Below are positions 9,193-43,303 of a DNA stretch of 64,000 nucleotides, in pieces. The position numbers and the translations under genes are program-made. Every line of letters begins with the position of its first letter. Position 1 is the first letter of the stretch. The notes beneath the pieces were generated by a model. That model worked only from the letters and a program-made list of their open reading frames with translations. It ran no database searches and was not told the DNA's origin. Source of the stretch: Salinivirgaceae bacterium (GTDB lineage: Bacteria; Bacteroidota; Bacteroidia; Bacteroidales; SZUA-534); the NCBI GenBank assembly GCA_017557785.1, contig JAFYYA010000084.1:1-64000 (forward strand). Reading direction: 5' to 3'.

Positions 9193-9239
9193 GACACTGT
9201 TCTCGTTATTGACAATCAAGTAATTATAAAATACTTATT

Positions 9240-9836: not shown

Positions 9837-9893
9837 TGCTAATAAAGACAATATCATCAAACTACTGTTAAATTTGTTAAAACTCAAACTACT

Positions 9894-10523
9894 ATGAAAA
9901 AACTAACACTTATCGCATTTGCCATTCTCGGCTCGCTCTGCGGCCACTCGCAGAACATCGAATATCCTAAAAATCAGGTATCTGCGTTTTATTGTAATGG
10001 AAAATCGCTATACTCGGGTTACGACAAGTTTCTCGGCAACAGAGAACCCGCTGATGGATACAAAGGCGATGGAACTGAACAATGGGATTATACCAATTTT
10101 TCGGGAACCTATAATATTGAGTATCTGCACAATTTTATTCAACCTTGGATGTCGTTGGGTGTGCAAATAGGTTATGAAGAAAATTGCTCTAAACATTGGA
10201 TTTACAGGTATCGTTCAATAGATGAAAAATCGAGTGACCATTGGACCGAAAAAGATAGGATGCCGTACATCCTTTGCGTTATGCAGTTCGATTTGCTGCG
10301 AAGCAATTGGATGGGGATATATACAAAGGCAGGAGAGGGCGTGCGGTTTGTTTTTACAGATAAAAAATATGAATCAGGGAAGACGGATAACAATTTTAAA
10401 TATGGTTTCTGTTTTGTTGGAGCAACTGGAATAGAAGTCGGACCCAAATTTGTGAGGTTTTTTGGTGAGTTGGGAATAGGTGCACAAGGTTTTGCGTCGA
10501 TAGGCATTCGCGGCCGTTTTTGA
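9894..10523 (+). CDS. Predicted small outer-membrane beta-barrel, tandem paralog 3
   Basis: The protein has 209 residues, with signal peptide MKKLTLIAFAILGSLCGHSQ. Shared motifs are EYPKNQVSAFY, GTYNIEYLHNF, YILCVMQFDLL, GIEVGPKFVRFFGELG and the C-terminal GIRGRF. The loop between the first strands differs from both paralogs, as expected if surface loops diverge faster than strands. It is probably the last gene of the three-gene unit; the next gene downstream has its own promoter box. Confidence 0.7.
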   Translation: MKKLTLIAFAILGSLCGHSQNIEYPKNQVSAFYCNGKSLYSGYDKFLGNREPADGYKGDGTEQWDYTNFSGTYNIEYLHNFIQPWMSLGVQIGYEENCSKHWIYRYRSIDEKSSDHWTEKDRMPYILCVMQFDLLRSNWMGIYTKAGEGVRFVFTDKKYESGKTDNNFKYGFCFVGATGIEVGPKFVRFFGELGIGAQGFASIGIRGRF

Positions 10524-21937: not shown

Positions 21938-22030
21938 ATGTATGCACTAACACAAACTAAAAACACAAACACTAACTGAAAATGGAAAACAAAGCAACCT
22001 TAAATGTTTAATAAATAAAAATTTACAATA

Positions 22031-22495
22031 ATGAAAAAGATATTTAATATGAGCTTTATCGCGGCTCTCGTAACTGTGGCGTTTTTATTTGCATCGTGCA
22101 ACAAAGATGACGAAACACCAGAAAAACCGACAATTACGCTAACCGAAGTGGGGCACGACAACAGCCGTCACGCCCATCCAGGACACGACCTGCACCTTGA
22201 AGCCGACGTTTTGGCCGAAGGCTTAATCAGCCGAATCGACATCGAGATACATCAGGAAGAAGGAAGCGGTTTTGAAATCGAAAAATCGTTTACTGATGGT
22301 AAATACATAGGTGTCAAGAACATAGAGTTCCATGAGCATATCGATATTCCTGCCGACGCGCCTATGGGCGAATATCACCTTCACTTCACGGTTACCGACA
22401 AAGAAGGCCAGCAAACGACGGCCGAATGCCACATCGAAATTGTTGAGGATGACGATGATGACGACGATGAACACGAACATTCACATAACGATTAA
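22031..22495 (+). CDS. DUF4625 lipoprotein 1, His/Asp-rich
   Basis: The protein has 154 residues. The lipobox LFASC puts Cys at about residue 23 (FIAALVTVAFLFASC). The body matches DUF4625: PTITLTEVGHDNSRHAHPGH, LHLEADVLAEGLISRIDIEI, PMGEYHLHFTVTDKEG. The tail has a seven-Asp run followed by EHEHSHND. His residues cluster at both ends, suggesting divalent metal capture. It follows the TonB receptor by 93 nt and precedes its paralog by 3 nt. Confidence 0.85.
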   Translation: MKKIFNMSFIAALVTVAFLFASCNKDDETPEKPTITLTEVGHDNSRHAHPGHDLHLEADVLAEGLISRIDIEIHQEEGSGFEIEKSFTDGKYIGVKNIEFHEHIDIPADAPMGEYHLHFTVTDKEGQQTTAECHIEIVEDDDDDDDEHEHSHND

Positions 22496-22498
22496 AGT

Positions 22499-22966
22499 AT
22501 GAAAAAAAGCATTTTTTCATCGCTTCTGCTGTGCGCACTCTGTGCGTGCAGCAGTTCCGATAAAACGGAGGATATGACGCTGCCCGAAATCACTGCCGAT
22601 GGCGAGCAGACTTGTCCCGTTGATTGTCAGCAGTTTAAACGTGGTGGTGTGATTGCTTTCCACTATCAGTTTTCCGACAATGTTGAGTTGGGTGGCTATA
22701 ACATTGAGGTTCACAACAATTTCGACCACCATACCCACAGCACATCGGCGGCCGAATGCGAAATTGAAACCGAAAAAAAGCCAGTGAATCCGTGGGTGTT
22801 CAACAGCGATTTTGACATTCCAGAAGGGCAGCAGACATACACGGCGATTATCAACATCGACATCCCAGCCGACATCGACCCAGGTGATTACCACTTTATG
22901 GTCCGACTGACAGACCAGGCTGGCTGGCAGCAACTGAAATCGGTGGCTATCAGGATTGAAGAGTAA
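22499..22966 (+). CDS. DUF4625 lipoprotein 2
   Basis: The protein has 155 residues. Lipobox LLCALCACSSS; the body has VDCQQFKRGGVIAFHYQFSD, GYNIEVHNNFDHHTHSTS and a C-terminal GDYHFMVRLTDQAGWQQLK, the same fold pattern as the preceding lipoprotein but without the Asp/His tail. The His cluster HHTHS sits at the same place as the metal-like cluster of its paralog. The gene starts 3 nt after the paralog stop, so the two are co-translated or at least co-transcribed. Confidence 0.83.
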   Translation: MKKSIFSSLLLCALCACSSSDKTEDMTLPEITADGEQTCPVDCQQFKRGGVIAFHYQFSDNVELGGYNIEVHNNFDHHTHSTSAAECEIETEKKPVNPWVFNSDFDIPEGQQTYTAIINIDIPADIDPGDYHFMVRLTDQAGWQQLKSVAIRIEE

Positions 22967-25936: not shown

Positions 25937-26190
25937 ATTTGGTAAGTAGTCAATGCTGATGACGGTCATTATTTTTTATGCCTAATCGCATATATTCGGA
26001 TGCTGTTTTTGTGTAAAAATACGTCAGTGAAATCGGTTGTATTTAAGCTAAAAATTAGGCGGTTACGAGTTCGACACGATTTGCGTTTCGGATGCAATTT
26101 TTTATCCCTTTTTTTTGTCGGATTGTCAAAAAAACGAGAACCAATGCCACTATAATGCGTATTTGGAAATCCACAAACATCTATTATAGG

Positions 26191-26198
26191 TATCTTTG
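26191..26198 (+). promoter_or_regulatory. -7 promoter box of the giant T9SS gene, with downstream SD-like site
   Basis: TATCTTTG matches TAnnTTTG. AGGAGA at 26214-26219 looks like a Shine-Dalgarno site, uncommon in this phylum, and is well spaced for the ATG at 26227 but too close to the ATG at 26221. Confidence 0.6.
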
Positions 26199-26226
26199 TG
26201 GGTTGAAACTAATAGGAGAAATGACT

Positions 26227-29200
26227 ATGAAAAATTTAGTTTTAGATATGAGATCAGTAGCAAAAATCAGAGTTTTATGCCTTTTGAGTTTGGCGCTTTT
26301 GACGGGGGCGAATAATGAGGCGTGGGGACAAACTTTCACGTCAGACAAAGATGGTGATTGGGAAACAGATCTTACATGGGTAGGAGGCGCTCAACCTTCT
26401 GGCGGTAGTGCAATTGTCATAAAAAATAAAGTCACATTGAATTCCGACTATACAGCAGTCGGCTTAACATTCAATAGTGGCGCAAAACTAAATATTAAAG
26501 AAGGTTGTACACTTACCGCAGAGAATGGCGGTAATATTGTATTTAGCGCTACAGAAACAATTATCGATGGAGTTGAGGGGCATGGTTATGGTACTTTGGT
26601 ATTAAAACATAAAATCAAAGGCAATAGCAAAACTTTGACAACGTATGCAAATGTCGTTTTTGAAAAAGGGGTAAGTGATGGTGGAGACCCGGATTTCAGT
26701 TGGGCAGTAGATAATGCACCTAACATTATTGTTTATAAAGGTACGTTTACAAACAATCGAAATTATGATAAATCTGTTGCAAACGCAGTAACCATAAATT
26801 CTGAAGGCACATTTGTTGCTAGCGATAATACTATATGTAACTATGTAACAATGAATGGAGGCACTTTGACAATAAATGAAAATAAATTTTTCAAAGTAAA
26901 CAGCCAAACAGATAAACTTAGAACTCTTTTTGTAAACGGGGATGCCACTATAAATGGAAACGGAACTCTTGATGTTGATAGAATTAAGATAACAGGAGGC
27001 ACGCTTACCTTTAATGGTGACATAACATTAAATCAAAATGTGAACATAGATGGTAATATTGAAATAGCAGAAGGACATGTATTATCGTTTACTGGTTTAT
27101 CAGCGACATTTAATAACCTTACATCTTGTACTGGTAGTGGGTCTTGCTCATTTCCGGCAACTGTTACTTATGCTGCCACCAGCAATCATATAATTGCTGG
27201 TTCTTACACAACTCTTAACATAAATGCAAGTACCGACTACGCGGAAAGAATATTATGTGGAATAGTAGAAGTTAGTGGAACATTTGCCCCAAATAAACAT
27301 TTCACTTTGAAAGGAGATGGTGATGCTACAAAAGAATTTTCAGTTAAAGGTAGTGTTACGGGACGAAAATCGCTAACATTTGAATATGTAAATGTTTCAT
27401 TAGGCAATAGTGATGGAGAAGGAACAATGGATGTCGATATTACCGAACTTAACATTGCCGAAGGTAACACTCTCACCATTGCGGGAAATGTCAATCTCAA
27501 GTCTGATAAAAACCAAAAATTCAATGGCGTTGATGGTAAAAATGGTGAGATAATAATCAATGATGAAAAAACGCTGACATCGGCTGGCACAATCAATTTT
27601 GCCAACGAACAAACAATCAGTGGCAACGGTACTTTTACAATTAACAAGCAAATTACTGGCCCTAAACTGATAACTTCCGCAAATATCAATATGAATGCTG
27701 GTAAGGCGACTACTGATATGGCCTACGAAGTTGCAGGTGGCACATTCACAAACAATAACGTCACGGACAACTTTAGATTTTACAATTTAGTTGTGTCGGG
27801 TGGAACATTTGTGGCGGCAGTTGATACTAGAGCCGAGGTTATGACAGTTACTGGCGGCACGGTTCGGATTGATAAAGACAAAACACTGACAGTTACGACT
27901 GGTAATCCTTTGTTGGTTGATGGTGATGCAACATTCGATGGTGGCACGAGAAGTAAATTGTCGACCGACAATGTTGATTTGCAGGAAGGAGCGATGCTCA
28001 CCATCAAAGACACAGTAACTCTCACGCGCCCGCTGGTGGTGAACAACAATGCAACCATTAAAGGAATTGCTCTTAGCGACACTTTGCAATGGGACGCCGA
28101 GACAACCCCCAAAATAAGTGTGGCTACGGGCAAAACGCTCACCATAGGCGACACTTTGACATTGGTTGGTAATGTGACGCTCGAAGGTCAGATGGCTGTT
28201 GTTGATACTGCAATCTTTAATCTTAAGGGTAGCAATATCATCTTTACACCAACATCGAAATTCACAGGAACAGAGGGCTTGATTAGTTTTGTTCCGGGAG
28301 TGACAATCTTTGGATTGAAAAACAACCCAGAGATATCGGCAAAGAATTTGAATTTTGCCGGAGCTGTTACTTACGATGCCACTTGTGTCGCCATGTTCCC
28401 CGGTAATTACAGCAATACATTGACTCTGCTCACCGCAGACGGGAACGATATTGCGATGTTTGACACTGTTAAAATATCAGGCTCGCTTAGTTGGAGCGCT
28501 GGCCGCATTGTGCTGAATGGCAATCCGTTGTTTGTTAAAGATGCAATTGGAAGCGGAACGTTTGGAGAAAAACACATGTTGGTTGCTGGCAAAAAGAGCA
28601 AATATGTTTTTGTGGCCGCAGAGAACAAGGCGGCTGGAGATTTAAACCTGACAATTCCTATCGGTACCAGCAGTCTGACAAGCTCTGGTGCATGGCAGTA
28701 TAGTTATTCACCGGCAACAATCAGCATCAACGAGGAGGTTGCGATGGGCGACACCATCGAAGTGCAAGTTGAGGATGATGCCTTGAACGGAAAGGCAACT
28801 GATTTGCGCCGCTATTGGACAATCAACAGCAATAGGGATCTTACTGGCACAGTGACATTCACTTACGCTGAGGCCGATGATGTGATGGGTTATGGCAAGA
28901 GTGCTGCCCATTATTGGCGTGTATTCCATGGCAATGATGTTTTCGATGGGGCTGATGATCCCCAAAGTCCGTTTGAATTAGGAGGACATGAAAGGACCTT
29001 CAGCGTAGCATTAGACGGTGACAAATATATCAACGGAACTTGGACGGCTTGCGAATGGCCGGCTGCAGTTACGCTATATTCATTCGGATCGGGTGATTGG
29101 AACAGCCCTGATAGCTGGACGACCAATTCCGCAGGTTCGACACATGAAGGCGGTAGGGTCCCCGATGCAAACTGCGATGTTGTGATTCTTCCGAAAGACG

Positions 29201-32200
29201 TGATTACCGGTACCGGCGCAGGTATAACCGCTCGGTCGGTGATGCTTAAAAACGAGACATCAACCTTGATTATTCCCGTTGGTTGTGGTGTCTCAATAAA
29301 CAATCTTTCTGGCGAAGGAAAGTTGATTATTGACGGCAGCGGTGAGTTCCCCGAAGGTATTGCCAACACCGAATTGTTTATGGCTCCTGGTGGAGGAACA
29401 ACGGAGTTCAGAGGTAGTCCCGATGGTCCTGCTGCAACTTTCATCTTGAAACAGCCAAAATTCAACAATCTGGTTATCAATTTTGGTAAAGATGGCGAAA
29501 AACTGCAGCTGCCTAACAATGAAAGTCACAAACTGATAATCAACGGTTCGCTGGAGCTTACCAATGGTACTGTTGAGTACACGCAAAAAGGCCAATACAT
29601 TAGCGTGGCAGGCGACATCAATATTGGTAAAAAAGGTTCAATCATCAATTCTGCTACAGAAGGTGGTGTTGTGGTAGGTGGCGATACCTTGGTGGTTGGC
29701 GGTAATCTTATCAACAATGGTATAATCAGACTGACAAGACGTGTTTGGAATGGTTATAATCCGACTGTTGCAAGTCAAGATGAGGAAGATAAAGGCCGCG
29801 GCATTCTTAGATTTGTGGGCGAGAGCAATGTTAAGTTTGAATGCTACGATACCACCAATATCAGCCAACTTATTATTGACAAGGGTTCCGATTGGACTTA
29901 TAAGGTTACTCTCGATGGAAAAAAAGAGAAGGTTTTTGGTCTTTTGGGCCGTGCAACAAACATTGCTAATCCGGAAGGATTTGCAAATAAACAAGCATAT
30001 CCTGCCAATCCGAAACAATTGTTTAAACCATTGTGGATAAAGGCCGGAACACTTGAACTTATAGGCGAGGTTCATATCCGTTCGCTGGCAGAACAAAGCG
30101 ATGGTAATAATGGTTTGGACTGCTTCTATATCCCGGCTCAAGGATGTTTGCATTTGAATGGTGATCATGTTAAAGTGGAAGTGACGATATCTGATGCAAA
30201 ATCAGTTGCTTATGCGTCTGTTATTCCGGCAGGAAAACTTATTGTTGAAAAAGGATTATTTGATGGAAAGGGAAGTTCGGGTATTACATTCGTTGGCACA
30301 TCTTTTATCGAGGTAAGAGGCGGAACACTGAAAGGTGCGCAATTCCGCCCCAGTGAATATGCATTAAAAGGAATCACCACATACATTCAGACTGGCGGAT
30401 ATGCAAAATTTGACGGGTGTGGTGATGATAAGGAAAACTCACCAATATTTTATATGCCCGAAGCGTCATACACATTTAAAATGACGGATGGCACATTGGA
30501 AGTTTGTTCGGCAATGAAAAAAGCTGAAAGTATAGGTTCGTTTGTTGTTAAATCTAATCCAGAAAATGGTAAGATACTGGGTGGCACAATTATAATAAAC
30601 ACAGGTAAGGCCATTAAGCTAAATAAAAATAAAATTGAGGATGTAAGCAATGGTAATTATTTGATTGCCACCGAGTTGCCTTTATTCAATCTTGTGCTTA
30701 GGAACAACAATCCAGATAATCCTTCAACAAATTATGTAAGGCACTATATCGAGGACTTGCACAAAAAGGTTTTGAATTATCAATGTGACATAACCGCATC
30801 AACAATCATTCAGAACGATTTGACAATTGAAGACGGAGTTGTGTTTGATACCCAAGGCAGACCGGTAACTGTCGGCAGGAATTTGAATATTGAATCTGGT
30901 GCTATAGTATATACCAAAGGCGGAGGCTCAACTGAGAACGAGTTTATTATGAATGGCACAGGCGAATTGACAGTCAATGGTGAAATAAAGGATATTTCCG
31001 GAAGTGCTAAAGAAGGATTCTATAATCTGACTTTTGCCGAAGGTGCCAGTGTGTCGATGAAAAGCGACATTACAGTTCGTGGCTTGTTCAAATTAGCTGA
31101 GCGTGCTACTATGAACGATGGTTCTAAAAACAAGACATACACAATAAGTGGTGATATCGAGATTGATGGAACCTATGATAAGTGCACATCGTGTGCAAGC
31201 AAGATGGTGATTGGCGGTGAAAACATTTATACCAAAGGCACAGGTGTGCTGAGTAATGTTGATATTAACGCCGGAAGCGAGTTGCTACTTTCCGACCGCA
31301 CTAACCCCGGTCGTCAAACTAAACTGGCTATTACCGGCAAACTCAACTTTGTCAGCGAAACACAGTTCAACATTGGCGGCAGCAATTTGGAATTCGGACC
31401 TGAGGCTGAGGTGGTTGGCTCTTTTGGCCCAACCCGTATGATTCGCACTGTGGGTACAAGTAGCCGTGGTGTTACGAAAGTGTTTGCGGCAAATGGCGAG
31501 TTCTTGTTCCCGTTTGGTTTTGTTGCCGATAAAGCATACTACACACCTGCCAAAATAAAATATACCACAGCCGACACTTACGGCAGTGTAACATCGCGCC
31601 CGGTTTACGGACAGTCGTTCCGCGACGATAATTCACTCAAAAGCTATTGGATTACCGAGGAACGCGGATTCAGCGGAGCAAGTCTCACACAATATTATTA
31701 TTGGTATGATGCAACACTTTCGGAAGGCGCAACTGATGCGTGGGTACCCGCCCGTCGCAACGGTTCGATATGGGAGATGTTCGGGTCTAACATGCTTGAA
31801 TTGGACGATCCAAATAACCGCCATATTTATTTCGACCCGAGCGTGAAGAGCGCTACTGGTTATTACACTTGTGGTCTGCCGGAATCGTTTGAAAGCACTG
31901 GCACACCGTTGTATACATCGAATGTTGTTGCCGACACGTTGGATTGGTTTGGTAGCGGAGTTACATGGTCAGAATCACCGAATGGCGATCCTTGTAACTG
32001 TATTCCTTCGGGAAACACCCCGGTTTATATTGGTGATGGCGGCGAGTATAATCGTAATGTAAAAATAGCCGTTTCCGATGATTATACCGGACCAAAAGCC
32101 GAGTGTGCAAGTTTGAACATCGCACCGGGTTCAACACTTGACATTACCAATTATAGCGAATTTAAATCACCGATTGTTGATGTTGATGAGTCGGTTGGTG

Positions 32201-35200
32201 CCGGAAAGTTGCGTCTGTCGTCAGATAAATTCCCCGAAGGCGATTTCGGCAAATTCAACGGTGAGTTTGGCGGTACGATTGAATATTACGGAAAGGGATA
32301 TGCAATACCAACCGCATCAATCGATGGCTCAGCATTGACCAATTACCGCAATTTAATAATTAGCGGAGGCGCATCGGGTAGCGATTCAATCAGCATGCCA
32401 GCTTGCGGCATCACTGTTTTCGACAGCGTTACAATCAGTGGTCGGGTTTGCACCAACCCAACAGGTGATTACACCATCAACATCAATAAGAATTTGATTA
32501 TTGCCGAAGGCGGACAATTCGAGGTGTTTGATGACGGAACAAACCACATGCAGACCATCAAAGTGGGTGACAGCCTTATTGTGGCCAATGGCGCGACAAT
32601 GATTGCCAATGGTACTACGCCAAACACCACTCTGAGTCTTTTGCAGATAGGTGGTAGTCTGATAGTAGATGGCACAATCAATGGCAATCGCAAAATAGAC
32701 AACGCTACCTTCTACAAGTTTAATACGGAGTTTGTAGGTAATAACGATGCGGAAATTAAGAGTAACGTGGACATGACATTTAACATGCTGACTTGCAACA
32801 AGAATTCTCTCGATGTCAAACTGATACTTAGAAAATGTAAGAAGATAAATACAGCCGTCAACAATGCTATATTGACATTGACAAAAGGAACATTGGTGGT
32901 AGCGGTTGAAGATGGACAAGGTGTTGATTTGTCGAATAACGCAGATTTTCCAATTCCTGCCGATGCATGTCTGCATGTGATTTCGGGTAATGCTAATGTC
33001 GCTAACCATACGTATAAAAAACAATTACTGCTATCGGGACATATTGTGGTTGATGGTGGTGTGCTTAGAATTGGTAAGGAAGACGGTTCTGTACATAACG
33101 ATATTTTATACGCCCCCGACGGCAAACCGTCAATCACAATCAATGGTGGAAAACTGTATGTCAACGGACAAATCAGCCGACAGTTAATTCCAGAGACAGG
33201 TTCGTTAATTTGGAAACAGACGAATGGCGACGTTGTGATTTATGGAAACGAGAGACCAACTACTGAAAACTTAAGAGGCAGGGGGGCATTCGAAGTCTTG
33301 AATGACGGCGAATTCGATATGAGTGGTGGAACAATAACTGTCATGACCGGTGGTGGTGAAGACCAATATGGTGATATTCTTATCGATCCGGCCACAATGA
33401 AATGCACCGGCGGAACAATTATCGCAAGCAATGGCTCGCTGAAAATTCGTGTTCCGCACAATATGTACAATTTGGAGGTTGCCAATGGTGCAACACTTAA
33501 CGCTTATACCGCACTCAATGTCAATGAACTGAAAATCGATAACTCCGGTGTATTCAATGCCCTTGACCATAACCTGACTATCCGCAAGGCGTTTAAGAAC
33601 TATAACAATCAGAATGGTTCGGGAATCAGTGAGGGTTTCAATTATGGAACATCGGCACAGTTGACAACGTTTGTCGGTAGCGATATGACTTATGAGGGTA
33701 TCAACGCTTCGGCGACACAGTTCAACACATTGGAGATAGACGGTGACTTGAATATGGTGAAAGGCCATTCTGACATGAGGGTGGGTGGCAATCTTACTCA
33801 AAATTCAGGAACAGTAACCGATAACGGCAACGTTATATCGCTCTATGGCAACCTTGTCTACTACGGAAACTTTGTCGGTAGTGGTGGTATCGATTTCTGC
33901 CGAGGCGATGGCGATGTGCAATATATTGATGGTAACGGTATGGGCTCTATCGGTACGGTTATTGTCAGCAACACAAGCGAGGTATATCTCAACAACAGTC
34001 CGTTCCGTATTACCAACAAGATTATCTTGGGTTCGTCGCTGTATATCAACCGAAACAATGTAATTCTTATTGATACTGCCACGGTTGAGGTTAAAGATGG
34101 CGTTTTCGACGGCAACCACATGATTCGTCTTAATGGTGAGCATGAGGATGCGGGTGTGACTAAATATGTGAAGAAGAACAAGTCGGAATTTACGATTCCG
34201 GTAGGTATCCTGCATAATGGCAACCGTTACTACACACCGGCTATTTACGAGTTTAAGAGCAACAGCGGTACAAACGTTCGTTCAATAACGGTCAAGACCA
34301 TCAACTCGAGACATAAGAATCTGACATACGAACCGTCGTATGGGCTTGATTACTATTGGAATGTTGCAACTGACGGCTTTGGTGAAGACGGCTCAGATAA
34401 TTTCTCGTCGGAGATAGGCGATTACGAAGTAACACAAAAGTACGTTTATCCTGAATCGAAGATGAGTGGCACAAAAGACACTCTGTTCCCCGAATATTTG
34501 TATTACGGAGGTACCGACGAGTATAAATGGATCGACCTTCGGGCTAAAAAAGGCGCGGGTTCCGAATTGGCCTATGTTGCTAAAGACAGCGTAATCTTCA
34601 AACCGTTCGGACACATTGCCGGTGATTATACGGTTGGCGTTGTAGGCACCACAGCGGCAGAGGATACAAACATATACACCGCCCGTCCGGTGCTTTATAC
34701 AGGTGGCAACAAGAAAGGCGGAGAGTGGGACAACCCCAAGACATGGTATAATAAAGATGGAGTTTCGCTTTTTGATGAAATGGGTGGAGTCGTTCCAGAA
34801 AATTATAAGATAGATGGCAACCCGGTACATATTCTTCCCGGCGATACTGTTTATGTGAAACGTAGCGGTACCAAAGCATACAGCCTTACTTTTGAAGATG
34901 GTGAGGAGTTGGGTGTTTTGAATATTGGTAACACAGTAGGCAGCGATTTCGGTCGTGTCAATGGTGTCGGGCATTTGGTTATGACACCTGTAAGTGCAGC
35001 TACCGGAAATTATTATAAGATGCCGGCCGGAAACTTCAGATCGTTCCTTACCGATGAGCGGAGTATTATTGAATTTGCAGGCGGCAGCGGTAAACTGCCG
35101 AACGAAATTGTCGGTCACGTCTCGATGCCGTTGCAGAATGTGATTTTGTCGGGTGGAGGCACCAAAACCTTGACAAAGGAATCGGGTGAGTACATCAACA

Positions 35201-38200
35201 AGAGCATGACCATCAGAAATAATACGACATTGGCATTCGGTAACACACCTATTTATATTAAAGGCGATTGGATTGATGAAAATACCGGCGCGTCGGGCGG
35301 ATTCCTGCCAGGCACGAACAACAGCAGGTCTATTGTAGAGTTCAATGGCACTAGCAGACAGAAGATTGTGCTGTCGGGCGACAACGAGTCGTTCTACATA
35401 CTGAAAATCAACAACCCGAGCGATGTTGAAATTGTTAAGGCAGAATCGGCTGCCGAAGCGGGTATAACAATCAATAAATCGTTGGAGTTTGTCAGCGGCT
35501 GTTTGGTTGATACCGCACCGAATACCAGTGTTACTCTCGCGCGGACTATCACATCGGTAAGCACCGCCAACTCGGCAAGGTTTGTGGCCGGACCGCTTAA
35601 GTGGAATTTGAAATCGGGCGATAGCCGCAAATTCCCGGTTGGCACCATTGACAAAACTGCCGGCAAAGTGTACGCACCGACAAATGTCAACGGCGTGACG
35701 AAAGACGGTAATTACACTGTGACGTTCTATTCGGGAGTTTACAGTTACGATGTCGTATGGCCGTTCACATCGATGAGCAACACCGAAAAGTGGACCGTGA
35801 CAGCGCCAGATAACGCCAATGCAAAATTGGGTCTTCGTGTCGGCTCTCGCACATTCGCTTCAATGAGTTCGAGTATGCTCAAACGCGTGAAGATTGCAGG
35901 TAACAATGACGTTGAATGGGAGCCGATAGCCAGTTCGCACAGCGGTGGCTCGCTGCCAGAGGCAATGATAACAACCACTGCGGCTATCAATCTGTCCGAT
36001 TATAGCGAATATACTCTCGGCAGCAGCAACAGTACGGCACGATTGTGGAATACAACCGACGAGAACACAACGTTCGACGTTTATATATGCGATGGCGATT
36101 ACGACGCCACCGAAATCCCGGTATACTTCACCGGCATGGGTGGCCCGTACAAGGTGAATTATAAGATAACCGACAAGGAAAAAGGGAAATCGGTTACCAT
36201 TGCCAGTCCTAAATTCACCGATAACGTGGGCTCTATAGCCATAACGGGTAGTGAGTTGGCCGCCAAGTTCGGTCGAAGCGATGGTTATTCGGACCAAGCG
36301 TACGAAATAGAAATAACCGGAATGACCGACAATAATGAAGACGGTATGCCTGCCGGTGGCAACAAAGTCGATGTGTATGTTCTCTACAACGCCAAACCTG
36401 ATATTGATGGAGCAGGAACAGTTGGTATGGGCGATGTCCGTGTTTACACAACCACAGCCAGCGACAAGGTTGATATTTATGAGTGGAGTTCAAACACCAA
36501 TAAGGCAACTATCGCGCCGACAGACAATACGGCAAATGTTACATTCGGCACCAATGCCAGCACATATAATGTGACACTGACAGTGAAAAACACTTACATA
36601 GAGTCACATGGCAAGTCGTGCTATCGCGAAAATTCGAAAGTCGTTAAAGTTGATGAAAACCCGCAACCCGAAATCAAAGGCAATTTTGGAATTTGCAGGT
36701 CTAACAGAAGTGCGACATTCTCTACCGATAAAGTGGGTACGCATACTTACGAATGGAATATCACAAATGTTGTCGGAGGTTCAGTGGGAGACATAACACT
36801 CAGCACGTCAGGCAGAACTGCGGAAAACAACGAAGTTACACTCACATGGGGCGCCGGATTTGCCGGAACAAAAGCCACTTTGGAAGTAACCGAGGAAAAC
36901 AGTGGTTTGACAACAACTGTAGAACGTGTCATAACATTCTACGACGATGTTGAATTGGGTGAAACCACAATTAGCAGCCCGGATGTTTGTGACAACACTA
37001 TTGGTACAGTTACTATTTCTAACACCAATGTCGATTATTTATATAGTATTTTCCAAGATGAGACCGCACTTTGCGATGAGTTTGGCGGGTCATCATCAGA
37101 GCCAACTGTGGTAACTACCAGCGAGCCTTTGCGCTATTCGACAGGTAATCTGAACTTTACTGTCATTATTAAAAACAAAGGTTGCCAAAAAGAATTGACG
37201 AATAACGAAATTACTGTTCACGAGAAGCCGGCAATTGATGATTTCACAATCGATGACAACGATTTGTTCAAGGGCAATTTGGTTCAGATTGATTATACCA
37301 AAACAAGTGTGATTGGCCTGAACAATTATGAGTTCGCTTATAGCGTCGCAGGTGTAAAATATCGTAATGATGAAGTACCTGCCAATTTGAGCAAGACTGT
37401 TGCAACTCCGATGGTGATTAGAATCCCCGATGCCGACAGAATGAAGGGTACGCTCACCATCAGTAGCAACGATAATGTGTTGTCTTGCACAAACACTTAC
37501 GAGATCGACAAACCAATCAGCGAGGCCTATCTGTGGAGTGGTGGCGGCAATAATACCAATTGGGATAATGCCGACAACTGGTGGGTAGGTACAGCACCTA
37601 ATAGCGACGAAGTTGATGTGGTTATCCGTAAAGATAAGAAAATCACTCTTGATGGAGGAAGAGAAGAAGACAACGATATCAGCATGCCAACGGTTAATGC
37701 CGCAGTCAGTGTCAGAAACATCAAAGTTGAATCAGGTGCGGATGTAAATGTTGATAACACGCTGACCATAAATAAAGATGTGGTTTGCAATGGCTCGTTT
37801 GCCGGCACAGGCACGGTGGCGTTTACTAGCGGCTCGCATACCGTTTCGGGTGCGGGCACATTCGCCAATCTGTCGAACGAAGGAACGGTTACAGCAAGCG
37901 ATGCAATGACCGTAACAGGCAATATCGCCAACAACGGCAGCTTTGCAGGAACTATTGCTTTGAATGGTTCATCGACGCAAACCGTCGGTGGTGGCAACTT
38001 CGAGGATGTTACCGTCAACAGCTCCGGTGTCACTATCGATAACAGCATTAACATCGGCGGTAAGCTGACACTCACAAAAGGCATTATCAGCGTAGGTGAC
38101 GGACAAGCTCTTGTGTTCACCAATGGCGCTAAAGATGTTGTGGGCGGAGGAGCCAAAGCGTATGTCGATGGCACAATGTGGAAATATGGAAAAACACCAT

Positions 38201-39153
38201 TCGTATTCCCGACAGGAAACAACGGCCGCCTTGCGAAGATTGGAATAACACCCGGCACCGATGCAACCGACGCCACATATTATTCTGCATCTTACGCTCT
38301 TGATGCGGGCAAAGCACCGTTAACCAGTGGCCTTTCCGCAGGTATGAGTCGTGTTAGCCAGGCTGAGACATGGTTAGTTGATTGCCCAGGTGGGAAATCA
38401 AGCAAGCTTACGCTCTATTGGTCTGATGCCGAAGCAAGTGGCATTACACCTGGTAAAGAGTCAGATTTGGTGGTCGCTCATTTCACAGAAGGGAAATGGA
38501 AGGCCGAGCCTGCCAAGTTCGACGGAGTGAATTCCATCTCAACCACATCGTATGTCACCTCATACAGTCCGTTCACGTTCGGTGCTAAAAATCCAGAACC
38601 GGATATCAACCCGCTTCCTGTCACCTTTGCAGCCTTTACTGGCCGTCAGGCGGGCAACAGCATTGTACTCGAGTGGACAACCCTTTCGGAGAAAGACAAC
38701 GACTACTTCGAGATTGAGCGCTCTATCGATGGTGTCAACTTTGTAACCATTGGCTATGTTGATGGTGCTGGTAATTCGAACAGCTTGCTCAACTATCAGT
38801 TTGCCGATAACGCACCTGAGCAGGGACAACTCTACTATCGCTTGTCGCAAGTCGATTTCGATGGCACACGCGAGTATGCCGACAAGATAGTGACTGTGCT
38901 TTACGCAGGCGATGACTTTGACCAACTGACCATTGTGCCCAACCCGACACATGGATTGTTCCGCGTCAGTGCTTCGGGTTCAATGGCAGGTGGCAGAATC
39001 GAGTTGCTGTCACAGTCAGGCATGGTAATCCGCATTATCGACATCAGCAGTTTCGATGCCACTGTCGACATCAGCGATTTACCAAGCGGAATTTACGTTC
39101 TGCGCTTAGTGACCGACACAAAGATTCTGCAGCAGAAAGTTGTTAAATACTAA
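26227..39153 (+). CDS. Giant modular T9SS-secreted protein (about 4,308 residues)
   Basis: A single uninterrupted 12.9-kb frame. The start at 26227 is chosen by the SD-like AGGAGA; it gives MKNLVLDMRSVAKIRVLC and a signal peptide ending near AWGQ. Five modules start with a Gly/Trp motif and continue into beta-helix-like Asn/Gly/Thr/Val repeats: near residue 45 (LTWVGG), 948 (FGSGDWNSPDSW), 1904 (FGSGVTWSESP), 2821 (GGEWDNPKTWYN) and 3767 (NTNWDNADNWWVG). Each later has a [FK]xxPxG block followed by Y/A-x-P (residues about 810, 1758, 2654, 3134 and 3991). Module 4 carries extra Ig/PKD-like domains (about 3290-3760). A common T9SS-associated domain (LPVTFAAFTGRQ, about 4128) and a type A sorting domain (VPNPTHGLFRV to QQKVVKY) end the protein. 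It is inferred to be a surface adhesin or matrix fibre; substrate unknown. Confidence 0.88.
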   Translation: MKNLVLDMRSVAKIRVLCLLSLALLTGANNEAWGQTFTSDKDGDWETDLTWVGGAQPSGGSAIVIKNKVTLNSDYTAVGLTFNSGAKLNIKEGCTLTAENGGNIVFSATETIIDGVEGHGYGTLVLKHKIKGNSKTLTTYANVVFEKGVSDGGDPDFSWAVDNAPNIIVYKGTFTNNRNYDKSVANAVTINSEGTFVASDNTICNYVTMNGGTLTINENKFFKVNSQTDKLRTLFVNGDATINGNGTLDVDRIKITGGTLTFNGDITLNQNVNIDGNIEIAEGHVLSFTGLSATFNNLTSCTGSGSCSFPATVTYAATSNHIIAGSYTTLNINASTDYAERILCGIVEVSGTFAPNKHFTLKGDGDATKEFSVKGSVTGRKSLTFEYVNVSLGNSDGEGTMDVDITELNIAEGNTLTIAGNVNLKSDKNQKFNGVDGKNGEIIINDEKTLTSAGTINFANEQTISGNGTFTINKQITGPKLITSANINMNAGKATTDMAYEVAGGTFTNNNVTDNFRFYNLVVSGGTFVAAVDTRAEVMTVTGGTVRIDKDKTLTVTTGNPLLVDGDATFDGGTRSKLSTDNVDLQEGAMLTIKDTVTLTRPLVVNNNATIKGIALSDTLQWDAETTPKISVATGKTLTIGDTLTLVGNVTLEGQMAVVDTAIFNLKGSNIIFTPTSKFTGTEGLISFVPGVTIFGLKNNPEISAKNLNFAGAVTYDATCVAMFPGNYSNTLTLLTADGNDIAMFDTVKISGSLSWSAGRIVLNGNPLFVKDAIGSGTFGEKHMLVAGKKSKYVFVAAENKAAGDLNLTIPIGTSSLTSSGAWQYSYSPATISINEEVAMGDTIEVQVEDDALNGKATDLRRYWTINSNRDLTGTVTFTYAEADDVMGYGKSAAHYWRVFHGNDVFDGADDPQSPFELGGHERTFSVALDGDKYINGTWTACEWPAAVTLYSFGSGDWNSPDSWTTNSAGSTHEGGRVPDANCDVVILPKDVITGTGAGITARSVMLKNETSTLIIPVGCGVSINNLSGEGKLIIDGSGEFPEGIANTELFMAPGGGTTEFRGSPDGPAATFILKQPKFNNLVINFGKDGEKLQLPNNESHKLIINGSLELTNGTVEYTQKGQYISVAGDINIGKKGSIINSATEGGVVVGGDTLVVGGNLINNGIIRLTRRVWNGYNPTVASQDEEDKGRGILRFVGESNVKFECYDTTNISQLIIDKGSDWTYKVTLDGKKEKVFGLLGRATNIANPEGFANKQAYPANPKQLFKPLWIKAGTLELIGEVHIRSLAEQSDGNNGLDCFYIPAQGCLHLNGDHVKVEVTISDAKSVAYASVIPAGKLIVEKGLFDGKGSSGITFVGTSFIEVRGGTLKGAQFRPSEYALKGITTYIQTGGYAKFDGCGDDKENSPIFYMPEASYTFKMTDGTLEVCSAMKKAESIGSFVVKSNPENGKILGGTIIINTGKAIKLNKNKIEDVSNGNYLIATELPLFNLVLRNNNPDNPSTNYVRHYIEDLHKKVLNYQCDITASTIIQNDLTIEDGVVFDTQGRPVTVGRNLNIESGAIVYTKGGGSTENEFIMNGTGELTVNGEIKDISGSAKEGFYNLTFAEGASVSMKSDITVRGLFKLAERATMNDGSKNKTYTISGDIEIDGTYDKCTSCASKMVIGGENIYTKGTGVLSNVDINAGSELLLSDRTNPGRQTKLAITGKLNFVSETQFNIGGSNLEFGPEAEVVGSFGPTRMIRTVGTSSRGVTKVFAANGEFLFPFGFVADKAYYTPAKIKYTTADTYGSVTSRPVYGQSFRDDNSLKSYWITEERGFSGASLTQYYYWYDATLSEGATDAWVPARRNGSIWEMFGSNMLELDDPNNRHIYFDPSVKSATGYYTCGLPESFESTGTPLYTSNVVADTLDWFGSGVTWSESPNGDPCNCIPSGNTPVYIGDGGEYNRNVKIAVSDDYTGPKAECASLNIAPGSTLDITNYSEFKSPIVDVDESVGAGKLRLSSDKFPEGDFGKFNGEFGGTIEYYGKGYAIPTASIDGSALTNYRNLIISGGASGSDSISMPACGITVFDSVTISGRVCTNPTGDYTININKNLIIAEGGQFEVFDDGTNHMQTIKVGDSLIVANGATMIANGTTPNTTLSLLQIGGSLIVDGTINGNRKIDNATFYKFNTEFVGNNDAEIKSNVDMTFNMLTCNKNSLDVKLILRKCKKINTAVNNAILTLTKGTLVVAVEDGQGVDLSNNADFPIPADACLHVISGNANVANHTYKKQLLLSGHIVVDGGVLRIGKEDGSVHNDILYAPDGKPSITINGGKLYVNGQISRQLIPETGSLIWKQTNGDVVIYGNERPTTENLRGRGAFEVLNDGEFDMSGGTITVMTGGGEDQYGDILIDPATMKCTGGTIIASNGSLKIRVPHNMYNLEVANGATLNAYTALNVNELKIDNSGVFNALDHNLTIRKAFKNYNNQNGSGISEGFNYGTSAQLTTFVGSDMTYEGINASATQFNTLEIDGDLNMVKGHSDMRVGGNLTQNSGTVTDNGNVISLYGNLVYYGNFVGSGGIDFCRGDGDVQYIDGNGMGSIGTVIVSNTSEVYLNNSPFRITNKIILGSSLYINRNNVILIDTATVEVKDGVFDGNHMIRLNGEHEDAGVTKYVKKNKSEFTIPVGILHNGNRYYTPAIYEFKSNSGTNVRSITVKTINSRHKNLTYEPSYGLDYYWNVATDGFGEDGSDNFSSEIGDYEVTQKYVYPESKMSGTKDTLFPEYLYYGGTDEYKWIDLRAKKGAGSELAYVAKDSVIFKPFGHIAGDYTVGVVGTTAAEDTNIYTARPVLYTGGNKKGGEWDNPKTWYNKDGVSLFDEMGGVVPENYKIDGNPVHILPGDTVYVKRSGTKAYSLTFEDGEELGVLNIGNTVGSDFGRVNGVGHLVMTPVSAATGNYYKMPAGNFRSFLTDERSIIEFAGGSGKLPNEIVGHVSMPLQNVILSGGGTKTLTKESGEYINKSMTIRNNTTLAFGNTPIYIKGDWIDENTGASGGFLPGTNNSRSIVEFNGTSRQKIVLSGDNESFYILKINNPSDVEIVKAESAAEAGITINKSLEFVSGCLVDTAPNTSVTLARTITSVSTANSARFVAGPLKWNLKSGDSRKFPVGTIDKTAGKVYAPTNVNGVTKDGNYTVTFYSGVYSYDVVWPFTSMSNTEKWTVTAPDNANAKLGLRVGSRTFASMSSSMLKRVKIAGNNDVEWEPIASSHSGGSLPEAMITTTAAINLSDYSEYTLGSSNSTARLWNTTDENTTFDVYICDGDYDATEIPVYFTGMGGPYKVNYKITDKEKGKSVTIASPKFTDNVGSIAITGSELAAKFGRSDGYSDQAYEIEITGMTDNNEDGMPAGGNKVDVYVLYNAKPDIDGAGTVGMGDVRVYTTTASDKVDIYEWSSNTNKATIAPTDNTANVTFGTNASTYNVTLTVKNTYIESHGKSCYRENSKVVKVDENPQPEIKGNFGICRSNRSATFSTDKVGTHTYEWNITNVVGGSVGDITLSTSGRTAENNEVTLTWGAGFAGTKATLEVTEENSGLTTTVERVITFYDDVELGETTISSPDVCDNTIGTVTISNTNVDYLYSIFQDETALCDEFGGSSSEPTVVTTSEPLRYSTGNLNFTVIIKNKGCQKELTNNEITVHEKPAIDDFTIDDNDLFKGNLVQIDYTKTSVIGLNNYEFAYSVAGVKYRNDEVPANLSKTVATPMVIRIPDADRMKGTLTISSNDNVLSCTNTYEIDKPISEAYLWSGGGNNTNWDNADNWWVGTAPNSDEVDVVIRKDKKITLDGGREEDNDISMPTVNAAVSVRNIKVESGADVNVDNTLTINKDVVCNGSFAGTGTVAFTSGSHTVSGAGTFANLSNEGTVTASDAMTVTGNIANNGSFAGTIALNGSSTQTVGGGNFEDVTVNSSGVTIDNSINIGGKLTLTKGIISVGDGQALVFTNGAKDVVGGGAKAYVDGTMWKYGKTPFVFPTGNNGRLAKIGITPGTDATDATYYSASYALDAGKAPLTSGLSAGMSRVSQAETWLVDCPGGKSSKLTLYWSDAEASGITPGKESDLVVAHFTEGKWKAEPAKFDGVNSISTTSYVTSYSPFTFGAKNPEPDINPLPVTFAAFTGRQAGNSIVLEWTTLSEKDNDYFEIERSIDGVNFVTIGYVDGAGNSNSLLNYQFADNAPEQGQLYYRLSQVDFDGTREYADKIVTVLYAGDDFDQLTIVPNPTHGLFRVSASGSMAGGRIELLSQSGMVIRIIDISSFDATVDISDLPSGIYVLRLVTDTKILQQKVVKY

Positions 39154-39206: not shown

Positions 39207-40274
39207 TTAATCACATTTTAGTTCAAATCTGAACGGTTTGTCGAATTTTCGCTGCGAGTAGTAAGTAACTGATGGTTTGGTGAGATTCATAATCATTGTC
39301 CATTGTGTGCCACCAATGAAATTCTCGCCCCACGGCTGCTGTGCAACCGAAAAAACAGCGTCATTCAGTTGCTGCGCGTTCATAATACCTTGTGAACCAT
39401 CGTAAAGGTCGCAGAGTATGTCGTAGCGGGTATCACCAAAAATCAGACCTGCATTGAGTTTCTGTTGACACAGGTAATGGTTGGTAACTGTATGAGTCTC
39501 GGTTACCACCATCTCGTTTTCAACGTATTCAACCACAACACTTTTGCCCGATGCGTCTGACATTGCGTAGTGGTGTGCGGCGCCTATATCGGAATGCATG
39601 TCGATTTTGCCGAGTAGTTTGATGGCTTCATCAACAGATGCGGCTTTTTTCAGCAGATAGGCAATTGCGCTGGTGGTGGTAAGTGCAGGTTTGCCCGTAT
39701 TTTGATGAGTTTCAGCATCATCGCCTGCCATTAGGTCGGCAATTGCGAATCCCTTCTCATTGATGCCATCGAGAGCCAGAAAAAGTCCGCTCAGTGCCAC
39801 ATATTGATTTACAAAACCCTCAGGCAGCCATCCGTCGCCTAATCCGTAAAATTCTGTATTAAAGGTGGATATGTATTCATATCCGTTTTTTGGAACAACG
39901 TGCATTATCATTGCATTTGCAGTCATATAGTCGAAATTGCGGCCCATCAGCACGTCGCCATCGGGAGTGCGCACGGTCAGTGTCGAGCAACCATAATTCA
40001 TTGTGTCGGTTGATGTTGGCGGGGTGTAGTATCCTTTCGACAGGAACTGGTTGATGTAAAGAATCACTTCTTGCGAATTTTTAGCACCGCCCTTTTCCAA
40101 AAAATCGTCAAAACCGTCGTCGCCACGGTATTCCATATAATACATGCCGTCGTCAAGTTTCTGGACCGACATGGCACCCTTTATCAGTGAACCGAATGTC
40201 GCCCAAACGCAAGCAATGGCGACAATAATCAATGAAAGAATGCCTAACAGTGTGATTTTTAATAGTTTTTTCAT
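39207..40274 (-). CDS. Membrane-anchored linear amide C-N hydrolase (Ntn fold, choloylglycine hydrolase/acyltransferase-like)
   Basis: The protein has 355 residues with an N-terminal helix (LLKITLLGILSLIIVAIACVWA) acting as signal or anchor. The Ntn-hydrolase core begins at MNYGCSTLTVRTPDGDVLMG: Cys96 is the candidate nucleophile, followed by GRNFDY, which matches the conserved Arg/Asp after the Cys in choloylglycine hydrolase and penicillin acylase relatives. Other blocks are LDGINEKGFAIADLMAG and FIGGTQWTMIMNLT. If the family chemistry holds, a pro-region of about 95 residues must be removed to free the Cys. The substrate (bile salt, N-acyl lactone, N-acyl amide) cannot be told from sequence. 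It is divergent to the sensor pair. Confidence 0.75.
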   Translation of the reverse strand: MKKLLKITLLGILSLIIVAIACVWATFGSLIKGAMSVQKLDDGMYYMEYRGDDGFDDFLEKGGAKNSQEVILYINQFLSKGYYTPPTSTDTMNYGCSTLTVRTPDGDVLMGRNFDYMTANAMIMHVVPKNGYEYISTFNTEFYGLGDGWLPEGFVNQYVALSGLFLALDGINEKGFAIADLMAGDDAETHQNTGKPALTTTSAIAYLLKKAASVDEAIKLLGKIDMHSDIGAAHHYAMSDASGKSVVVEYVENEMVVTETHTVTNHYLCQQKLNAGLIFGDTRYDILCDLYDGSQGIMNAQQLNDAVFSVAQQPWGENFIGGTQWTMIMNLTKPSVTYYSQRKFDKPFRFELKCD

Positions 40275-40570: not shown

Positions 40571-43291
40571 ATGAAAGTCAGAATCCGTCTAAGTTACAGG
40601 GTGCTTGCACTGGTGCTGGGCACTGTGTCAGTGGTCATATTTTTTGCCGCGCGAATAATCAATAACCAGTTCCGGTCATCGATAATTGAGACAATGGAAA
40701 AGCGCGATGCCGCATTGCTTGAAGACATTTCGACAACGTTCTCGAACATTGCCGACTGCGAGTACAAGAAACTCGTCACTATGAAATCGGTCATCGAGTC
40801 GACCATCAACGGCAGTTATGACAGCAATGAAAGTTTCTATAGAAGCATTATCAAAAGCACCTGCAGCAGCAACCCGATGCTGGCCGCCGTTTGGATCTGC
40901 TTCGACAACGGCTACGTGAGTGGCGTGAGCAACGGACGGCAACTTCTGCGGACAGATCGCACATCATATGGCTTTGAGTCGAAAAGCACATTCTTCGACT
41001 ACGACACTGACAATAACACTGAGTCGCCATATTACGTTGTTCGCAGGCTCAAAAAGCCGATGTTTTCTGAGCCGTCAACGTTCTTCCAGGACGAGTCTGT
41101 AACAAAGAAATATCTGAAATCATCAATTGCGCTACCAATTAACAGAAAAGGCGAAACCATCGGTGTCATCAGTTCCGACATCAACCTTCACACTCTGCGC
41201 CTGATGGTCGATTCCATTTGCCAGGCTAGCAACAAGAAGATTACCATCATTTCGTCGAGCGGAATGATTGTCGATTACCATAACCCGGACCTTATTGGCC
41301 TTCAGTTTGCCGAAATCGACACAGTGATTGCCCGTGCTGACACCAGCAACTCAAAAACCATCTTCATCAAAGATCATATGGGTAACGACAGCATTCTGTG
41401 CACGACACTGACCATCAATCCAGCGGGGCTCGGCAACCAGTGGAAACTGATTGCAACCACATCGGTGGCTGAGGTGAACGCACAGATTAGCAGTTCGCTG
41501 ATGTTTGTTAGAAAGGTGATTGCTGTAGGACTTATCTTGCTGGCATTTATCATCTTCATTCTTTCGATGAAGATTGTCACCCCAATCAACAAGGTGAACG
41601 CCATAATCAGGAAACTGTCGTTAGGGCAAGTCGACAATGCTCTGAAGATGGATGTCGACAGCGATGATGAACTTGGACAGATGGCCGACTCATCGAATAA
41701 AGTGGTTGACGGACTGCTGCAAGTCACCAAATTCGCCGAGAACATCGGTAACGGCAATTCAAACTACAATTTCACGCCGCTGAGCGACAAGGACGTGCTT
41801 GGCAACGCCATCATCGAAATGAAAAACAGTCTTGAGCGCGCTAAAATTGAGGAAAACGAGCGACGCGAGGAAGAGGGGCAACTTAACTGGGCATCGAATG
41901 GTATCAACCTGTTCAACAAGGTGCTGCGCGTCGACAATAGTGATATGAAAACGCTTGCGGGCGAGATTATCAAAAACTTGACACTTTATCTTGACTCACA
42001 GATGGGCGCCTTCTACATTATTCCGCCCGATCGCAAGGGCGCCGAGTTGGTGGCACACATCGGCTTTAGCAAAGAGAAGGCATCGGTAAATGGTTTTGTT
42101 GAGCCGGGCAAGGGGCTGATAGGCCGGGCTTATCTTGAGAAAGAGACAATATTCATTAGCGACATAACACCCGATATCGACCAGATTGGCTCGGGATTGG
42201 GCCGGGCACTGCCAAAATCGGCGCTCATTGTCCCGCTGCTCTACAATAAGGACTTGGTGGGTATTGTCGAAATATACTCATTCAAAGTGCTGCAACCATA
42301 CCAAATTTCGTTTGTCGAGAAATTGTCGGAGAACATTGCATCGACAATATCGACAGTGAAAATCAACGGCCAGACAGCGCAGTTGCTCGAAAAATCGAAG
42401 CGGCAGGCTGAGATTCTGGAGCAACAGGAAGAGGAGATCCGTCAGAACATGGAGGAGATGCAGGCCACTCAGGAAGAGTCGACACAAAAAGAAGAAGAAC
42501 TCACCACAATTATATCGGGATTCAACTCTGTGATGCCGACTGTCCACTACGACACAAGCAGGCACATCACCGATGTGAACGACGAATTCGCCGCATTGGT
42601 GAACAGCAAGCGCGAGAAACTTATTGGCAAGCGCCACAAATCAGAAGTGATAATGGACGAAAAGGAGCAGACACTGCACGAACACTTCTGGGAAGAGTTG
42701 TTGAAAGGCAACATTATGGAGAGCGAGGAGTTGTACACAAACGGCAAGAAACAAGTCTGGCTGCTTGAGCGGTTCATTCCTGTGACTGATGCCGATGGTG
42801 TCATAACCGAAATAGTTGAGATTGGCATCGACATCACGGCTCAAAAGAAAATTGAGGAGAAGATTCAGATGATTCAGGAGGGCGTGATACCCGATGACCT
42901 GAAAAAGGAAATTGTGCCCGAATTGGCCGAGACCAAGCAGCAGCTCATCGACCTGACCAACCTGAATGTGGTTTACAAAAACGACGAGAAGAAGATTGCC
43001 GACATTCTGAAACGCTACGCGGAACAGATTCCGGCACAGATTTCAGAAATGGAGAGTCTGGTTAAGGACCGCAACTATAAGAGCCTTAAAACAGTGGCAA
43101 AATCATTGAAAACAAAGATTAACTATCTGGGAATAAGGCATATTTACAACTCTATTGACAAAATCATCAAACTTATAGATGACGATAAGAACCTGACCGC
43201 CATCCCCGGGTTGTTCAAAACAATGAAAACATTGTGGGATGCGGCTGGAGCCGAACTGAACGACATCGTGAACTACAAGACCAAACTTTAA
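40571..43291 (+). CDS. Cache-HAMP-GAF-PAS sensor ending in an Hpt-like domain without histidine
   Basis: The protein has 906 residues: TM1 about 12-30, a periplasmic dCache-like domain (to about 305), TM2 about 313-337, HAMP to about 390, GAF about 440-597, a coiled coil with EEEIRQNMEEMQATQEE (about 597-645), PAS about 650-760, then a helical tail (800-904). The tail resembles an Hpt domain, but the expected phospho-acceptor motif AHxLKG reads AKSLKT, with Lys844 where His should be. I see no histidine-kinase, GGDEF, EAL, phosphatase or methyl-accepting signalling domain. The next gene starts 12 nt downstream and encodes a paralog. It is a probable membrane receptor; the output is unknown. 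Confidence 0.82.
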   Translation: MKVRIRLSYRVLALVLGTVSVVIFFAARIINNQFRSSIIETMEKRDAALLEDISTTFSNIADCEYKKLVTMKSVIESTINGSYDSNESFYRSIIKSTCSSNPMLAAVWICFDNGYVSGVSNGRQLLRTDRTSYGFESKSTFFDYDTDNNTESPYYVVRRLKKPMFSEPSTFFQDESVTKKYLKSSIALPINRKGETIGVISSDINLHTLRLMVDSICQASNKKITIISSSGMIVDYHNPDLIGLQFAEIDTVIARADTSNSKTIFIKDHMGNDSILCTTLTINPAGLGNQWKLIATTSVAEVNAQISSSLMFVRKVIAVGLILLAFIIFILSMKIVTPINKVNAIIRKLSLGQVDNALKMDVDSDDELGQMADSSNKVVDGLLQVTKFAENIGNGNSNYNFTPLSDKDVLGNAIIEMKNSLERAKIEENERREEEGQLNWASNGINLFNKVLRVDNSDMKTLAGEIIKNLTLYLDSQMGAFYIIPPDRKGAELVAHIGFSKEKASVNGFVEPGKGLIGRAYLEKETIFISDITPDIDQIGSGLGRALPKSALIVPLLYNKDLVGIVEIYSFKVLQPYQISFVEKLSENIASTISTVKINGQTAQLLEKSKRQAEILEQQEEEIRQNMEEMQATQEESTQKEEELTTIISGFNSVMPTVHYDTSRHITDVNDEFAALVNSKREKLIGKRHKSEVIMDEKEQTLHEHFWEELLKGNIMESEELYTNGKKQVWLLERFIPVTDADGVITEIVEIGIDITAQKKIEEKIQMIQEGVIPDDLKKEIVPELAETKQQLIDLTNLNVVYKNDEKKIADILKRYAEQIPAQISEMESLVKDRNYKSLKTVAKSLKTKINYLGIRHIYNSIDKIIKLIDDDKNLTAIPGLFKTMKTLWDAAGAELNDIVNYKTKL

Positions 43292-43303
43292 AAACTTACG
43301 GCA

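Follow-up and report, generated by a model that had tools for sequence, protein, structure and literature searches.

Giant mosaic surface proteins are already known as a kind. SprB-type gliding adhesins are giant surface proteins of the type IX secretion system (T9SS) with a type B tail, GhpA, the grappling hook of Aureispira, is T9SS-exported, and the adhesins pertactin, Ag43 and EtpA use another secretion route. The gene described here, in a 64-kb stretch of DNA from a Salinivirgaceae bacterium (hereafter the window), encodes a predicted T9SS protein of 4,308 amino acids (aa) with five modules (m1 to m5), a set of immunoglobulin (Ig)-like domains and a C-terminal sorting domain (Table 1). 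The nearest published parallel found appears to be VARTIG of the Thermococcales, a large Ig-containing protein whose C-terminal Ig domain is described as hypervariable via recombination between lineages; the same article reports accompanying variable or unique downstream gene sets, some with Ig domains, and leaves the function unassigned (PMC8416519). Periscope proteins are described as surface stalk proteins with high-identity repeats that expand and contract within populations (PMC9704523).

The giant protein resembles VARTIG in containing Ig-like domains and in having one end that varies through recombination-like exchange, a likeness that implies no homology. VARTIG is archaeal and variable at its C-terminal end, whereas here the most variable stretch of a predicted T9SS protein is N-terminal; m5 varies in some pairs of homologs and is not an Ig domain. 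With Periscope proteins it shares a predicted surface stalk and length variation between relatives, but its modules align, as single sequences, at about 22% identity over long stretches, and their number is fixed in the core, so that they are not high-identity tandem repeats. The m2-m5 order and the likely tip exchange in this unnamed module family are new.

The homolog search gave at least 65 proteins, scored among the 1,506 candidates listed, on which all near-homolog counts rest. Forty-nine of them (P0002-P0050, among the matches listed) cover 86-100% of the giant protein. The near-homolog set used below (n = 51) consists of P0003-P0050 and the proteins of the window and of genomes G011 and G018; P0002, the window's own protein with an internal start, was left out, and the distant P0051-P0066 were excluded from module profiles, pair alignments, clustering and the module-order count. 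In all 51 proteins the best matches to m2, m3, m4 and m5, among those listed, follow this order and span 90% or more of the respective profile; the sole shorter one is m5 of P0032 (58%). The start of m2 ranges from residue 445 (P0050) to 3,169 (P0039), with a variable number of m1-like pieces ahead. The original prediction had proposed a search for homologs with different module numbers; such differences exist at the N-terminal end, whereas the number of core modules does not vary.

Seventy-six of the 1,275 possible pairs, picked by shared 5-mers, were aligned. Cores are about 95% or more identical in 30 of the 76, and in 17 of these 30 the distal tips are at most 65% identical (range 37-65%); with an exact cut at 95, tips diverge in 15 of 28 pairs. 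Examples are P0007-G011 (tip 38, core 99) and P0009-P0010 (tip 37, core 99). The converse occurs in three pairs, namely P0009-G011 and P0005-P0009 (tips 86 and 85; cores 60) and P0023-P0029 (tip 85, core 67). By clustering, a core type shared by six proteins carries four tip types, and the tip types T1 and T2 both recur on two core types. The T0 assignment on core C6 was dropped, since it stems from a single 229-residue tip that matches a portion of one about 2,700 residues long. The tip tree conflicts with the core tree: the window's tip groups with P0011 and its core with P0003, and approximately unbiased (AU) tests (13 rows, quick trees, LG+G4) reject the crossed groupings (p 3e-5, 2e-8 and 1e-6). 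Between G011 and G018, residues 600-4200 are 91-100% identical (at least 97% past the first bin), with a synonymous divergence (dS) of 0-0.11, and residues 1-600 are 45-74% identical; dS of 13 other genes compared between the two contigs is 0.05-1.69. These alignments show that the gene is, at the level of sequence, a mosaic of a fixed m2-m5 core and a variable N-terminal zone.

Synonymous sites carry a similar signal. Among the 38 window genes examined, 26 have a match on G011's contig; dS is greatest for the giant gene (1.36, against 0.01-0.98 for the 25 others), in which it falls to 0.23 over the last 78 codons, the sorting domain. The window's genome also encodes a second full-length relative (contig C33, 3,637 aa, 31% identity), and in three pairs of this C33-type paralog dS is 1.25-1.67 with flanks at 0.11-0.44; a fourth pair, G000-G017 (dS 2.83), was left uncounted because it offers no flank for comparison. 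Replacement of an allele by recombination is expected to leave such a trace, raised dS with a fall near the gene's end. The TonB receptor and DUF4625 genes upstream may belong to the exchanged stretch.

The best explanation, which is moderately likely, is that the gene encodes a T9SS-exported, C-terminally anchored surface fibre whose N-terminal tip, as a variable binding or antigenic end, has probably passed between lineages through homologous recombination. Judged by the sorting domain and by the genome's T9SS genes, the C-terminus would serve export and anchoring; five homologous beta-helix/beta-sandwich modules and an Ig-like stalk would give the fibre its shape, going by models of one module and the C-terminal quarter. 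The tip may be swapped between lineages by homologous recombination and may act in adhesion or antigenic escape. Because the C-terminus is the likely anchor, the N-terminus is likely the far end; a core that stays fixed while this end is exchanged would suit a stalk that bears a binding or antigenic tip.

Several observations weigh against this explanation. In the other 13 of the 30 high-core pairs the tips are alike as well (above 65%). The pairs are non-independent: six proteins of one core type supply 15 of the 30 pairs with similar cores, and 13 of the 17 in which the tips diverge. Of the other four divergent-tip pairs, two are P0009-P0010 and P0012-P0014 and two involve P0034; because the N-terminal end of P0034 is missing, its two pairs, at 65%, are doubtful. 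The groups for the AU tests were chosen after the identities had been seen, and the core tree carries a long-branch warning for P0009/P0010 beside P0011/P0012. Nor is variation confined to the tip: cores fall into several types, m5, which adjoins the anchor, is 40-60% identical in 4 of the 76 pairs with cores at 92-94% (for example P0037-P0039, core 93, m5 40), and the last 150 residues of the G011 and G018 proteins are 71% identical. Genes just upstream (window 19856-22966) are also raised against G011 (TonB receptor dS 0.98, DUF4625 0.79, the next two values below that of the giant gene), and against G018 the giant gene does not stand out at dS 1.44, with a GAF/PAS gene pair reaching 1.43-1.60 and others about 1.0. 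Foldseek alone gave no match of the m3 model to the PDB at E 0.001 or better, no experiments on any family member were found, and most sequences are metagenome assemblies in which giant modular genes could be chimeric.

Silent tip cassettes were searched for with the window's m1 in the 11 genomes of the genus, where 24 of 25 matches lie inside frames of at least 3,931 aa; the remaining match falls in a frame of 239 aa that sits at a contig edge (G012:C8). A pilS-like tip reservoir was dropped as a candidate, none being seen in these 11 genomes, although very divergent tips could escape the m1 search.

The open frame (26092-39153, 4,353 codons) is uninterrupted, as originally predicted, and yields 4,308 aa from ATG 26227; a second in-frame ATG lies at 26221, and GGAGAA stands shortly 5' of the start ATG at 26227. 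The window contains no N letters and is contig C59 of a 3.0-Mb assembly of 153 contigs, 94% complete with 7% contamination. A frameshift or split frame, named beforehand as what would refute the prediction, is not indicated, because in other assemblies, too, each of the near homologs (P0003-P0050) is one single protein of 3,774-6,631 aa (P0034 apparently cut at its N-terminus).

The module starts (aa about 35-48, 946, 1901, 2821 and 3766) agree with the five foreseen. Their even spacing of 2.7-2.9 kb holds for the start positions but does not reflect equal units: m1-m3 measure about 910-955 aa and m4 and m5 about 345-430 aa, and the spacing after m4 is partly due to the Ig/PKD insert, which had itself been anticipated. 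The late PxG block is present in all five modules, its proposed exact pattern fitting m2, m3 and m4 best, while m1 reads TIPIG and m5 lacks Y-x-P. Self-similarity is faint in single sequences (best blastp m2-m3, E 0.001; best phmmer m1-m5, 6.8e-5), blastp of the whole protein against itself listed no off-diagonal match, and DNA-level self-similarity comprises only short families of 25-30 nt. Profiles built from 39 (m1) or 48 ortholog rows besides the window's own are far more sensitive: the forward score beats the reversed control in all ten module pairs, which shows that the five modules are homologous and supports their origin by duplication, as claimed. The m2-m3 match (E 6e-53; reversed 0.021) is full length and in register (columns 9-952 on 3-918). 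Other pairs include m4-m5 (3e-20; reversed 0.12), m1-m2 (4.5e-17; reversed 4.4e-6) and the weakest, m1-m4 (5e-5; reversed 0.059). Scores of m1 are compositionally inflated, as its reversed controls, down to 1e-6, show. The FN3-like domain and tail segment match no module profile better than E 0.022. In other genomes full-length modules directly adjoin, for example in G212 and G203 (two matches each, 3 and 0 bases apart); thus, the unit of about 900 residues is real.

Pfam and NCBIfam scans recognised only the T9SS type A sorting domain. PKD_6 and the G8 domain (PF10162; 17.1 and 22.0 bits, curated cut-off 22.9) remained below threshold, although G8 is precomputed in three homologs. The module family, with its head and PxG unit, is in neither Pfam nor NCBIfam, consistent with the earlier statement that it has no named family, and a literature search by title and start of abstract found no paper on it, subscription papers, which may exist, lying outside that search. 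Of the genomes covered, module m3 occurs in 11 of 11 from the genus, 14 of 20 from the family, 99 of 295 sampled from the order and 39 of 395 from the phylum (the window's genome counted in each), many of the phylum matches being short. Distant relatives in Flammeovirga, Reichenbachiella and Cyclobacteriaceae retain m2- and m3-like parts at 22-28% identity. Giant genes are in tandem in G009 and G017. One tandem pair (L003:9989-38480; 5,607 and at least 3,794 aa) shares DNA in only two matches of 51-58 bases, and G017:C3 likewise carries a pair. A third, more distant giant relative in the window's genome is a T9SS frame of 5,009 aa (L007:2412-17438 (-), G000:C52) with m4/m5-like pieces and a tail of the giant-protein kind.

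Structures were predicted for m3 and for the C-terminal quarter of the protein. The AlphaFold2 model of m3 contains a beta-helix (about residues 60-720 of the module) and a beta-sandwich (about 720-905), and in both models the beta-sandwich, which closes off the beta-helix, begins with the PxG block. The beta-helix recalls the shaft of the autotransporter and two-partner-secretion adhesins pertactin, Ag43 and EtpA, but m3 has no sequence relative in the PDB at E 1. For the C-terminal quarter, the top Foldseek match is GhpA (PDB 9flp, E 1.6e-20, with other GhpA entries including 9fls and 9fly), likewise a giant protein with tandem Ig-like domains; however, the likeness is local to the Ig chain, the overall root-mean-square deviation is 81 Å, and titin and other Ig chains match too. 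Homology to GhpA was set aside for want of sequence support, GhpA being absent from the sequence matches. The profile of the first Ig-like domain (window 36000-36350) matches the nucleoporin POM152 (E 7.7e-9). From the predicted beta-helices it is reasonable to infer an adhesin or fibre.

Autoproteolysis of the module sandwiches in the manner of the ZU5/GAIN superfamily has a fold hint only and was set aside. H-[LF]-[ST] is one of the catalytic motifs of that superfamily. H-F-T occurs once, in the m5 sandwich (aa 4085-4087, window 38479-38487), about 28 residues before the last strand and not in it; its His is invariant in 15 aligned rows, the two residues that follow vary, and the last strands of the sandwiches, by eye, lack H-[LF]-[ST]. 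The C-terminal catalytic motif CxH, given in PMC3482391, is in none of the five sandwich pieces.

The tail exceeds the cut-offs of TIGR04183 (31.4 bits, cut-off 23) and PF18962 (34.6 and 32.9 bits, cut-off 27; 25.9, below it, in the whole-protein scan), which bears out the proposed C-terminal sorting domain and assigns it to type A. The window's genome has 31 sorting-domain matches, 24 above cut-off, and encodes the SprA translocon (TIGR04189) and the PorU sortase (NF033707, 1052.9 bits, cut-off 420). By its tail and these genes, the giant protein is predicted to be exported as type A T9SS cargo. It would be a giant T9SS surface adhesin like SprB but has a type A instead of a type B tail; the type B tail (TIGR04131) has five matches in the genome, none of them on C59.

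A broader proposal, tentative at best, is that the family is a bacterial counterpart of VARTIG: up to three giant T9SS loci per genome would mark strain identity or serve as escape antigens, species of the genus would share a pool of interchangeable tips through recombination anchored in the core and sorting domain, and phages, grazers or kin recognition would maintain the diversity. Less probable is a conserved plant-fibre adhesin whose beta-helices bind cell-wall polysaccharide, allele differences then corresponding to substrates rather than escape. The ligand is not deducible from the fold, whose best matches are other kinds of adhesin and tailspike, and distant relatives occur in Flammeovirga and Reichenbachiella, which are marine.

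That the mosaic is an assembly artefact, with strains of one sample stitched within a giant gene, is unlikely. In its favour, the homologs are nearly all metagenome-derived and known from assemblies alone. However, similar breaks occur in several core types on separate contigs, modules would not easily be misjoined because they share almost no DNA identity, and the contrast between the window and G011, which requires no internal join, recurs at the second locus in three genomes. Fast evolution under relaxed or positive selection without exchange might account for the low protein identity (66%) beside conserved neighbours, but it is very improbable: selection at the protein level alone is not expected to raise synonymous change as seen here, and the reciprocal sharing of tips and cores and the AU tests already disfavour it. 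Hardly credible is a polymorphic toxin or a contact-killing system whose effector would be the variable end, although a giant beta-helix protein with a swapped end would recall CDI-like (contact-dependent inhibition) systems. Pfam scans of the giant protein find no toxin family, and PADLOC has no family for it; the variable end matches G8, Fil_haemagg and AIDA just weakly, a sorting domain occupies the C-terminus, and the downstream genes with Pfam names encode a CBAH-like hydrolase and two sensors. Membership in a defence system was dropped on the same PADLOC result.

Table 1. Features of the giant gene and its product (window coordinates)
Feature	Position	Strand	Basis
Signal-peptide-like region (aa 1-34, ending AWG), start ATG 26227	26227..26328	+	read from the sequence
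Module m1 (aa 35-945), profile-related to m2	26329..29061	+	profile comparison
Distal tip (about aa 35-600), divergent among alleles whose cores are nearly identical	26329..28026	+	pair identities, clustering, trees
Module m2 (aa 946-1900), core	29062..31926	+	profile comparison
Module m3 (aa 1901-2820), core	31927..34686	+	profile comparison and AlphaFold2 model
Short module m4 (aa 2821-3250)	34687..35976	+	profile comparison
About five Ig/PKD-like domains (aa 3251-3765)	35977..37521	+	predicted structure; PKD_6 E 8e-5, 23.3 bits, below cut-off 25
Short module m5 (aa 3766-4110): head, short beta-helix, beta-sandwich	37522..38556	+	profile comparison, predicted structure
FN3-like domain (about aa 4111-4231)	38557..38919	+	
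T9SS type A C-terminal sorting domain (aa 4232-4308)	38920..39150	+	TIGR04183, PF18962

Directly behind the giant gene lies a CBAH-like gene of the choloylglycine hydrolase family (39207-40274 (-)) that was not found on the G011 and G018 contigs. It is followed by two adjoining GAF/PAS/Cache sensor proteins (window 40571-45670, about 29% alike); the pair is common to the window and G011, and its G018 orthologs (dS 1.4-1.6) sit elsewhere on the contig. Upstream, a DUF4625 gene at 22031-22495 has no match on G011's contig. Three neighbouring genes at window 8569-10523 (198-209 aa) have best matches on the G018 contig of 32-68% identity beside conserved neighbours, two of them matching one single G018 gene, and are possibly another variable cluster. 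Window 51-2642 encodes an 863-aa protein that carries PKD domains together with a T9SS tail.

Thus, a module family that bears no Pfam or NCBIfam name builds very long proteins, and with a fixed core and a swapped far end, the drivers of surface-protein diversity in uncultured gut bacteria become testable.
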